34,599 nucleotides of DNA from a virus. Location of the stretch: positions 1-34,599 of the IMG/VR virus record IMGVR_UViG_3300046007_002571; one strand, given 5' to 3'. A program made the translations under genes and the position numbers. This document shows, piece after piece, positions 33,046 through 34,599 of the stretch (within the stretch, counting starts at the first letter, position 1; each line of letters opens with the position of its first letter). The notes beneath the pieces were generated by a model. The model worked only from the letters and a program-made list of their open reading frames with translations. It did no database searches and was not told the origin of the DNA.

Positions 33046-33882
33046 TTAATCTCCGCAGTAACAGGGAATAGCTTCTTGGTTGTTATCAAACATGTCTTGC
33101 TGGTTTAAGGCGTACTGGTGTAACTCTTTATAACTTGGCATGTCCTTTCTAAACCTGGCCCCGTCTCCAAAGGTTTTGTTGCTGGTCTGGGCGTGGTTCT
33201 CCATCTTGATCCACCAGAGCGCTCGGTCTGGCTTCTCTTTGATGAGGCTTAAGATTTGATTTGGGGTCTTAAGAAAACACAGGTCACAGTTCCCATGCAT
33301 GGTGACGCCGTTCATGTTCGGCAGCTCAAGATCGAAAGTCTGAGCCTTCCAGAACTCTGATACGGTCTCTTTGGTTACACCTGCCGTGACCAATGGGGTG
33401 CGGCTGCGGTCTATCTTGGCTGCGCGTCGCTGCTCGTCAGCTCGGATACCGACCCAGTCTTCATTCTCTGTGTGATCCCACCCAAGAGACCGGACATAGT
33501 TGTGAATCGTCCTGATCTTTAACTTTGCCGTGCAGATGCGGGCTACAGGGTTGGGAAGGTACGGGCTACCGTTCTGGTCTATCAGTTCAAAGAAGGGCTC
33601 GCCGTCTCTGCTTGCCGTCTCAAAGGTTACGCGCTTGAATCTTTGGCGCTGCTCTTCATGATATCGATACTCCAGCCAGTGGATCTCGACGCCCCATTCA
33701 CGCCCGCAGCGGTCGATGAACCGCAGGGTTTCTTCCATCTCTTTGCCCGTGTTGGCGAAGCAGACAATGCTCTCAGAAGGAAGCCCGCCATTACTTTGCA
33801 GCACGCGCCAGAGCATGTAGGCCGAGGTACGCCCGCCAGAAAATGAAATGACGGTCGGCTCTGAGATCTTAAACGGATCCAT
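33046..33882 (-). CDS. PAPS reductase-like nucleotide-hydrolase protein (IbrA-like)
   Basis: A 278-residue member of the PAPS reductase/adenine nucleotide alpha-hydrolase superfamily. Residues 14-20 form the PP-loop FSGGRTS; NTGKE lies at 44-48; the basic WVGIRADEQRR is at 143-153. Cysteines at C117 (RICTAKLK), C189 and C192 (CDLCFLK), and C274 and C276 (CYCGD) could hold an Fe-S cluster or carry a persulphide. Phage and island proteins of this type are usually not sulphate-assimilation enzymes but nucleotide- or nucleic-acid-modifying partners. It is the first gene of the left-running block, with an AGGAGAG site and two palindromic operators immediately upstream. Together with the following gene it matches the ibrAB arrangement. 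Confidence 0.82.
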   Translation of the reverse strand: MDPFKISEPTVISFSGGRTSAYMLWRVLQSNGGLPSESIVCFANTGKEMEETLRFIDRCGREWGVEIHWLEYRYHEEQRQRFKRVTFETASRDGEPFFELIDQNGSPYLPNPVARICTAKLKIRTIHNYVRSLGWDHTENEDWVGIRADEQRRAAKIDRSRTPLVTAGVTKETVSEFWKAQTFDLELPNMNGVTMHGNCDLCFLKTPNQILSLIKEKPDRALWWIKMENHAQTSNKTFGDGARFRKDMPSYKELHQYALNQQDMFDNNQEAIPCYCGD

Positions 33883-33895
33883 GTTCTCTCCTGTC

Positions 33896-33928
33896 TGTAA
33901 CTATGTTACACCCTGTAACAATGTTACA
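33896..33928. promoter_or_regulatory. Tandem TGTAAC/GTTACA operators before the IbrA-like gene
   Basis: Two palindromes, TGTAAC-TAT-GTTACA at 33896-33910 and TGTAAC-AAT-GTTACA at 33914-33928, lie 14-46 bases before the start codon, with centres 18 bases apart (nearly two helical turns). They would cover the ribosome site and promoter of the operon, a typical repressor position. They have the same half-sites as the array at 24725-24845. Confidence 0.78.
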
Positions 33929-34033
33929 CCATAATTTTGAGGGAGCTACCCCCCTTTGTTGTTTTTAATCTTTAAGCTATCTCGTAGAACTACTTAACGA
34001 CACCTGTCTGCTGGTGGGCAAGACTCAGCCATC

Positions 34034-34073
34034 CCAGATCGTCTTACTGTAACAGATGTTACAGTTGATCTGG
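34034..34073. promoter_or_regulatory. Hairpin containing a TGTAAC/GTTACA operator
   Basis: An outer inverted repeat CCAGATC (34034-34040) and GATCTGG (34067-34073) flanks the inner ACTGTAAC-AGAT-GTTACAGT (34046-34065). The outer arms are separated from the inner by five bases on one side and one on the other. The inner part has the operator half-sites found elsewhere, with a 4-base spacer. It could serve as an operator or, if transcribed, as a hairpin in the leader of the leftward operon. Confidence 0.65.
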
Positions 34074-34247
34074 TGGCCTTTACAAAGTCTGTCCGCCGGA
34101 GCCGCTTTGACTCGCCAGTCGTTCGCTGCTGGGGCACTAGCTTCGCCACCCCGTTCTGATTCTTCCGCAGCTTTCCCCCAGTTTCAGATCTTTGGTCAGT
34201 GCGCTGGCGTTGAGACCCCGTCCACACAGACCGCAGTCGGAGCGCCC

Positions 34248-34383
34248 AAAAGAAAAACCCCCTAGGGAGGACTTGGGCTTGACAGGCCAGCATCGGGCGA
34301 ACACCAAACGATGACTACAAGCCCTCTCTAGGAGGTTCTGGGTCTTAAAGGTGTTCGCCAAATGCCGGAGCGTCACTTCCGAC
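34248..34383 (-). ncRNA. Candidate structured RNA with pseudoknot and terminator
   Basis: On the minus strand, from a predicted start near 34383, four arms occur in order a, b, a', b': a is GGCGAACACC (34359-34350), b is CCTAGAGA plus GGGCTTG (34332-34318), a' is GGTGTTCGCC (34305-34296), and b' is CAAGCCC, a 6-base bulge and TCCCTAGG (34281-34261). Arms a/a' give ten perfect pairs; b/b' give fifteen pairs with one G-U. The order makes an H-type pseudoknot or two competing hairpins. The b/b' stem is followed by GGG and TTTTTCTTTT (34257-34248), as in an intrinsic terminator. I know no matching RNA family. Confidence 0.55.
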
Positions 34384-34389
34384 AACCGT

Positions 34390-34418
34390 AGGATAGCAAA
34401 GCTGGAGAAAAGTTCCAA
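34390..34418 (-). promoter_or_regulatory. Candidate sigma-70-type promoter (leftward)
   Basis: On the minus strand TTGGAA (34418-34413) and TATCCT (34395-34390) are separated by exactly 17 bases, and TGC stands immediately before the -10 box, giving an extended -10. Each hexamer matches the consensus at four of six positions. It would start the structured RNA described at 34248-34383. A palindrome at 34425-34439 lies just upstream, in a place suitable for an operator or activator. Confidence 0.45.
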
Positions 34419-34447: not shown

Positions 34448-34521
34448 GGGGCCAGGATTCATTTGCACCTTTTGCCAAAGGATACGGGCTGTTTAACGAC
34501 GCCGAGCCGTCGCCTGGCCCC
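34448..34521. other. Three-way-junction-like structured element
   Basis: GGGGCCAGG (34448-34456) pairs perfectly with CCTGGCCCC (34513-34521) and encloses two further hairpins: CCTTT-TGCC-AAAGG (34468-34481) and CGACG-CCGAGC-CGTCG (34497-34512). The last is directly adjacent to the closing arm, allowing coaxial stacking. If read on the plus strand it would lie in the 5' leader of a gene starting beyond the window, a riboswitch-like position. I cannot match it to a known class. Confidence 0.45.
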
Positions 34522-34537: not shown

Positions 34538-34575
34538 AAAAAAAGATCCAGGGCGAGGGGAATCAACCTGGATCT
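34536..34575 (-). terminator. Leftward intrinsic terminator near the right edge
   Basis: AGATCCAGG (34544-34552) and CCTGGATCT (34567-34575) form a nine-pair stem with a 14-base loop; on the minus strand it is followed by TTTTTTTT (34544-34537, sharing one base with the stem). It would stop transcription entering from the right. On the plus strand the same hairpin lies close to the ribosome site at the window end. Confidence 0.75.
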
Positions 34576-34599
34576 AACCCTGTGAGGGAGGAGAGTAAA

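Follow-up and report, generated by a model that had tools for sequence, protein, structure and literature searches.

What kind of RNA is encoded on the minus strand near the end of this viral sequence, and would it act on its own or as the beginning of something larger? The window, that is, the whole stretch of 34,599 nucleotides analysed here, had been read in an earlier note as carrying a leftward promoter candidate, arms in the order a-b-a'-b' and a U-rich tract, interpreted either as a compact stable RNA of about 135 nt or as an on/off switch. Direct reading confirms the promoter at 34418-34390, with 17 nt between the -35 and a TG-extended -10, as well as the order of the arms and the U-rich tract at 34359-34248. 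The ten perfect pairs of a/a' were recovered, whereas b/b', formerly counted as 15 pairs, has 19 of 20 here, two of the 19 being G-U. The IbrA-like gene, placed some 360 bases away, is 366 bases from its start at 33882. A consensus promoter scan found 0 promoters, the promoter of the window being too weak for it. The parts of the element are as follows.

34413..34418 (-): -35 hexamer TTGGAA, read directly; majority consensus over 51 heads: ttgaaC
34390..34395 (-): extended -10 hexamer TATCCT, with TGC before the hexamer; TA---T at -12 to -7 of P1 in 51/51 distinct class-1 heads
about 34383 (-): predicted transcription start
34378..34383 (-): P1 5' strand GTCGGA; partner 34241-34236
34362..34375 (-): lower extension of the a hairpin, 5' strand; partner 34293-34280
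34350..34359 (-): arm a, GGCGAACACC; 10/10 pairs with 34305-34296
34318..34337 (-): arm b, 5' strand of the putative terminator stem; 19/20 pairs with 34275-34256
34309..34313 (-): arm c, CATCG, alternative partner of c'; pairs with 34295-34291
34296..34305 (-): arm a', GGTGTTCGCC; in the c/c' hairpin loop in the predicted terminator state
34280..34295 (-): c' and 3' strand of the lower a hairpin, CGATGCTGGCCTGTCA; two possible partners, c or the lower a extension
34256..34275 (-): arm b', 3' strand of the putative terminator stem
34248..34257 (-): U-rich run TTTTTCTTTT; terminator-like sites predicted, T conserved after b'
34236..34241 (-): P1 3' strand (P1') TCCGAC, beyond the U-run; head/tail junction directly 3'
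34110..34232 (-): tail A core, Rfam RF02932 Betaproteobacteria-1 RNA; match to the full model (1-120) at 91.3 bits against a gathering score of 49.4
34004..34109 (-): 3' extension of tail A, past the Rfam model
33046..33882 (-): downstream phosphoadenosine phosphosulfate reductase-like (IbrA-like) gene; phrog_424, E 1.1e-47

The head is new to Rfam 15 at gathering score, and the tail of the window is the already known family RF02932. The whole model is matched by this tail, the match being confined to 34232-34110, on the same strand and 15 bases from the U-run. The covariance-model search proposed in the earlier note returned this family at 91.3 bits and nothing on the head: the region 34418-34236 has no Rfam match at E up to 10 and is not part of the RF02932 model. 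In the 720 bases scanned at that limit, the only other matches were two below threshold, both upstream of the promoter. The suggestion that the RNA was undescribed consequently stands for the head and for tails B-E in the loci scanned, which lack a match in Rfam 15, and falls for the tail of the window. Sequence conservation past the Rfam model reaches about 34004, and the 3' extension of tail A consists, in this order, of a hairpin CAAAG..CTTTG with GGCTCC and X1 (34094-34089) in its loop, then a last hairpin, CACCA and X2 (34009-34004). Neither the head with P1 nor the hairpin of GGCUCC/X1, the last hairpin or X2 is part of the 120-nt model of RF02932; the full RNA appears to measure ~380 nt from the predicted start at 34383, with the head as its 5' part. 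The Rfam output gives no function for RF02932, and no paper naming RF02932 or Betaproteobacteria-1 RNA was found among the published open-access papers searched.

Relatives were collected by pattern. The RF02932 core matched 81 virus and 15 bacterial stretches, five of the latter being chance-like (L086, L088, L089, L095, L096). The head start matched 48 virus stretches, which together with the window make 49 loci, 44 of them distinct over the first 260 bases; one, L026, is practically identical to the window. Bacterial copies are uncommon, since 7 of 300 genomes of one order match, 5 of them over the cut-off, in a set that includes one genome (G001) already known to match. Neither the window nor a head with tail B, C or D had a match in 50,697 phage records at the limits used, and the RNA of locus L007 had none among plasmids.

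The first step is whether the head is held together by the two crossed helices. The 148-nt stretch 34395-34248 has a computed energy of -55.2 kcal/mol, against -43.6 +/- 3.7 in shuffles (z -3.15; 0/200 as low). The structure test counted the pairs of P1, the lower extension, a/a' and b/b' over 51 distinct class-1 heads: 96.9% of cells are paired, a proportion that falls to 33.6-52.8% once the partners are slid by 1-3 columns. Compensatory change, the check set beforehand, was found in 198 double-change cells versus 58.1 +/- 9.8 in shuffles (0/500) and in 17 pairs with double changes versus 11.3 (0/500); the weakest measure is that of further pair types, 52 versus 47.4, which 12 of 500 shuffles equal. 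An earlier count on 47 of the 51 heads (without L122, L130, L260 and L262) gave 189 double changes versus 56.5. Taken by helix, a/a' has double changes at 7/7 aligned pairs and 92.0% of cells paired, b/b' at 9/20 pairs and 97.1%, and the 10 pairs counted in the lower a extension, paired in 99.7-100% of cells, are mostly invariant with one double change; head L262 is an exception, in which a/a' is broken (by eye). Partners also fit best within their own locus: over 40 heads, the a/a' helix measures 9.9 bp with its own partner versus 5.8 with that of other loci (34 different pairs), and the b/b' helix 17.2 versus 9.9 bp (22 different pairs). That a/a' and b/b' are crossed helices preserved by compensatory change is well supported by this alignment. 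As regards c/c', taken over 4 columns in 47 heads, three columns are paired in 47/47, one of these with double changes, and the fourth is unpaired in 26/47; short and mostly invariant, it is best regarded as a weakly tested candidate stem. After b', T occupies four invariant positions and one nearly invariant position in the 51 heads, and a U-rich run lies 3' of b' in 51/51.

The arms of a/a' are variable. In 19 tail-B loci, diversity amounts to 0.47 in a, 0.40 in a' and 0.47 in the unpaired linker, and elsewhere to 0.13 in b, 0.11 in b', 0.09 in the tail and 0.30 in the promoter. Since the unpaired linker is equally variable in these loci, diversifying selection on a/a' is not claimed; such variability may fit a neutral stem and would fit a recognition code too. 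Two ORFs that overlap the element, one of 93 aa and one of 99 aa, were set aside as a coding region because the changes follow the pattern of a paired RNA. An energy scan for crossed helices and a U-run passed 50 of 87 RF02932 loci at the cut used, and also 35% of shuffles, so it served only as a guide for reading by eye.

The closing stem P1 extends the element beyond the limit first assigned to it. In the 51-head set, 96.7% of its cells are paired and its changes are one-sided only, because the search pattern had fixed its 5' strand. Before the same tail B, P1 reads GTCGGA/TCCGAC in one head class and GTCAGC/GCTGAC in another (15 and 10 of 25 distinct loci, by eye). Across 28 heads of several classes, the own partner reaches 12.3 against a permuted mean of 10.5, the largest of 300 permutations being 11.7, a modest margin in a test whose 5' windows were picked after the candidate pairings were visible; the best helix was short or unexpected in L032, L078, L108, L213, L216, L219 and L229, and head L065 could not be placed. 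It is well supported by these comparisons that P1 would join the predicted first nucleotides to bases past the U-run and thus enclose the whole head. The earlier note had let the element end at the U-run; P1' lies past it, and the lower a extension and c/c' are also present.

Directly after P1', at least five unrelated tails (A-E) follow the same head in relatives. Loci L102 and L123 are identical at 98/100 upstream bases and 137/138 bases of the head, and part from each other immediately behind TTCCGAC, the former into tail E and the latter into tail C, with no common 9-mer in the next 250; conversely, where heads of class 1 and class 3 both carry tail B, their sequences merge at about GAC|TGCGCG (two locus pairs). 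Judged from these alignments, the point of tail exchange is exactly the end of P1'. Tail C stands behind class-2 (e.g. L213, L216, L219), class-1 (L112, L123, L220) and class-3 (L228) heads, and no head precedes it in L217, all by eye. A tail is carried by 46 of the 49 loci with a head, and the remaining three could not be judged (L125 and L134, rearranged; L128, contig end). By tail, the 49 loci comprise 20 with A (RF02932-like), 10 with B, 10 with C (seven assigned by pattern and three by eye), 3 with D and 3 with E. For tail C, RNAalifold predicts 40 pairs, 25 of them with at least one double change (18 sequences; a prediction without shuffled control), and our guess, based on how well they are conserved, is that tails B, D and E may be structured as well. 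Rfam gave no match at gathering scores in 11 loci with tails B-E, nor in L253 (tail B) and L213 (tail C), and nothing convincing at E up to 5 for one tail C and one tail D region. Of 87 loci with tail A, about 48 have a head of one class or another in front of it (by eye; near-duplicates included). In 7 of 27 tabulated loci RF02932 is headless, and the distance from the end of a 280-308-aa ORF, named primase-like from its size, its place in the gene order and a motif, to the core motif is 91-154 bases; therefore the tail can presumably do without the gate of the head. Acidovorax phage AP1 (OM049504.1), the only named phage matching tail A, has the annotated order helicase, primase, then RF02932, with no head seen by eye.

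The genes that follow are varied. In the window, the order after the RNA is IbrA-like, ParB-like, helicase and primase. When the downstream ORF is taken as the longest one starting 300-800 bases on, 46 of the 51 heads have one, and 14 of these 46 start with the FW..YP motif (by eye) of the L105 protein, which matches replication initiation families. The other downstream proteins examined match a ParB-like protein (L103), an HNH endonuclease (L102), a reductase-like protein (L077), an exonuclease (L132) and a major head protein (L123), and that of L028 has its C-terminal part in common with the HNH endonuclease of L102 (by eye). We therefore read the RNA as an accessory module before various genes, often, and not always, near replication genes. 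A fixed tie to the IbrA-like gene was rejected: among 49 loci of IbrA-like relatives, 46 with at least 300 bases upstream, only 3/46 (L287, L329, L330) have tail A or C upstream, and L287 may be the same virus as the window because it shares a contig with L026 and its protein is identical to that of the window. We also observed that in one phage group (L028, L051, L102, L123) the RNA lies near structural genes; it stands before an HNH endonuclease-like gene in L102 (tail E) and L028 (tail A, by eye), and before the major head protein gene in L123 (tail C).

We consider it rather probable that the head is a transcription attenuator, in which the a/a' hairpin and the b/b' terminator would compete and decide whether the tail and the downstream gene are transcribed. 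RNA polymerase would start at P1 and make a, b, c, a' and c' first. In state I (read-through), the a/a' hairpin with its lower extension would form and leave b in the loop; in state II (termination), once b' has been made, b/b' and c/c' would form just before the U-run. Transcription would then either stop after about 135 nt or continue through P1' into the tail and the downstream gene; P1' would close the head of the read-through RNA, and the structured tail, here RF02932, would follow. We propose an attenuator anatomy because the two states are similar in energy, the a hairpin is transcribed first, linkers are short in some of the heads and c' has two possible partners. Over 40 heads, the computed energies are -38.5 +/- 4.1 for state I and -42.2 +/- 2.4 kcal/mol for state II, and state I minus state II amounts to +3.7 +/- 3.4 kcal/mol (range -3.2 to 9.7), these energies ignoring pseudoknots. 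On the same basis, with pseudoknots outside the energies, state II is favoured in 33/40 heads and state I in 6/40; the head of the window itself is among these 6, with a margin of 3.2 kcal/mol. The a-b linker measures 1-3 nt in 15/40 heads (a value of 0 for L124 is a pattern artefact and is not counted among the 15) and 5-12 nt in many. Linkers of 1-3 nt would by our estimate make the full coexistence of a/a' and b/b' hard, and those of 5-12 nt would by their length fit a coaxial a+b pseudoknot. A conserved intrinsic terminator stem with a U-run, as expected of an attenuator, is found by sequence in the 51 heads, as a predicted terminator. Among the points against this best explanation are the preference of the window's own head for state I, the broken a/a' of L262, the linkers of 5-12 nt, the weakly tested c/c', the occurrence of RF02932 without a head, and downstream genes that go beyond replication (HNH endonuclease, major head protein, exonuclease, reductase-like). 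We infer switching, the exclusion of one state by the other, regulation, termination at the U-run and cotranscription of the downstream gene. Between the two alternatives of the earlier note, the on/off switch is the better supported one, in view of the close state energies (40 heads) and the linkers of 1-3 nt.

A further hypothesis, which we put forward tentatively and regard as rather unlikely, concerns self-recognition, in which the short terminated head RNA would pair in trans with arm a of the nascent head of the same or an identical phage and silence the tail and the downstream genes. In the short head RNA, a' would be exposed in the loop of c/c' and a would be left unpaired; pairing in trans would stop the read-through hairpin, and phages with another a/a' would escape. 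The variable a/a' would then serve as the code for recognition, and the exchangeable tails would supply a set of structured effector RNAs. Action in trans is something we infer solely from the variable and self-complementary arms.

Among the explanations that dispense with attenuation, a constitutive fold survives best, and we hold it to be unlikely: a/a' and b/b' would coexist in one stable pseudoknotted domain, the U-run being structural and not a terminator. Such a domain is consistent with P1 enclosing the whole head, U-run included, and with a tail after all 46 judgeable heads; in class-1 heads, the ~9-12 nt from b to a' and the ~20 nt after a' would by estimate permit a coaxial arrangement by length. 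It is difficult to reconcile with the U-rich run behind b/b' in every one of the 51 heads, which is the mark of an intrinsic terminator, and with the two possible partners of c'. Class-2 heads (L013, L036, L052, L078, L213) argue in the same direction, since a' directly adjoins b' and about 3-7 nt separate a from b, so that by estimate there is no room for both full helices.

The compact small RNA of 135 nt that would end at the U-run and act alone, with RF02932 as a separate transcript, now appears very doubtful. The promoter, the terminator-like site and the strong fold are those that it would need, and RF02932 does occur without a head; yet P1 has its 3' strand past the U-run, with compensatory changes linking that strand to the 5' end when head classes are compared, and no tailless class-1 head exists among the 46 judgeable loci. 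As an account of the whole element it is not supported, because P1 takes in bases past the U-run, 46/46 heads are followed by a tail and the tail is an Rfam family. It is highly improbable that the tails work in the manner of HK022 put, as antitermination elements of the nascent RNA, with the head as the first terminator on an early operon, for although several loci have the RNA in front of or within a replication gene cluster and tail C has a conserved structure, a put-like element should precede its terminator and the tail follows that of the head, the Rfam scans gave no match other than RF02932 at gathering score, and some copies precede a major head protein or HNH gene.

The attenuator reading may be compared with known systems. 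In the RNA immunity of phage P4 (CI) and phage P1 (C4), a replication-operon leader ends early through pairing between transcripts of the same leader, and recognition segments set the specificity. The present head differs in that a single crossed structure combines the putatively competing segments with a predicted intrinsic terminator, and in that its tails are exchangeable; Rfam scans of the window and 18 relatives, two of these scanned only in part, gave no family of the P4 CI / P1 C4 type. GOLLD and ROOL are carried by phages, we know of no terminator switch or tail exchange in either, and neither had a match in the Rfam scans; both belong to the large structured noncoding (ornate) RNAs (PMC12286853). 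According to its abstract, the Gifsy-1 prophage RNA IsrK has a short isoform that ends at a terminator and a long isoform that reads through, the short form activating translation of the long one (PMC4825925). The head would share with IsrK such a pair of short terminated and long read-through RNAs, here predicted, whereas neither a crossed terminator helix nor a closing stem or a structured tail is mentioned in that abstract (PMC4825925). The put RNA of HK022 is a structured nascent phage RNA of early transcription that suppresses pausing and termination, in contrast to the predicted terminator inside the head (PMC9378689). No comparable head-tail RNA was recognised in the literature searched on phage structured RNAs, antitermination, P4 immunity and attenuation. 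It can be surmised that the RF02932 of Rfam is an isolated 120-nt piece of an apparently large modular phage RNA class, with a common switch-like head with its own promoter, a fixed joining point and several unrelated tails. Should the head act as their gate, it would offer a direct handle on tail function; if a/a' acts in trans, it would amount to an RNA-only immunity or copy-control code common to many phages. The head-then-tail arrangement is in addition a defined search pattern for further structured RNAs.

Tail A has a peculiarity of its own. X1, in the hairpin loop after GGCUCC, and X2, after CACCA, differ between phages and agree within a phage (L007, L009, L020, L037, L071 and others), and between L007 and L072 the flank beyond X2 is kept and both repeats differ together. 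Over 60 distinct loci, the mean longest shared word of X1 and X2 within a locus is 6.8 nt versus 4.8 when permuted, the largest of 200 permutations giving 5.2; in the window only GACAG is shared. This comparison left out 13/92 loci, in which the last hairpin was missed by the anchor or the contig ended. Pairing of X1 or X2 within the RNA was rejected, as the own complement fraction of 0.67 equals in practice the 0.66 across loci (32 repeats; complements sought from 330 bases upstream to 60 bases downstream of the core motif). Sequences resembling RF02932 at 33-46 bits, below the cut-off, occur in bacterial genomes (L240, L245, L246, L248), two of them from genomes that also hold strong RF02932 copies; these four are possible further tail variants. 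RF02932 itself occurs outside the phage gene order in Azonexus, Thauera and an Alcaligenaceae bacterium (L087, L092, L099), and in L092 the minus-strand ORF after it begins VAVFALVDCNNFYA, which we take to be UmuC-like.

Several motifs surround the RNA. Just upstream of the promoter, at 34474-34512 (-), lies a Pistol-ribozyme-like motif (UUAAAYAG ... GUGCAA), at 17.9 bits in the window and 21.2 in L081, below the gathering score of 34.5; by pattern it also precedes the head in L074, L077, L081 and L083, besides the window and its copies. The terminator of the preceding operon resembles RF02278, the Betaproteobacteria toxic small RNA (gathering 50), with 33.7 bits (E 2.4e-5) at 2766-2826 of L081 and 21.3 bits (E 0.082) at 34538-34596 (-) of the window. 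Two perfect TGTAACNNNGTTACA palindromes stand in tandem at 33896-33928, before the IbrA-like start, and a similar palindrome with a 4-base spacer lies in the RNA itself, within its last hairpin (34065-34046). When up to 2 mismatches are allowed, TGTAACNNNGTTACA has 7 matches in the window versus 1.06 expected (0/100 shuffles have as many), and these palindromes are possibly operators of a phage regulator.
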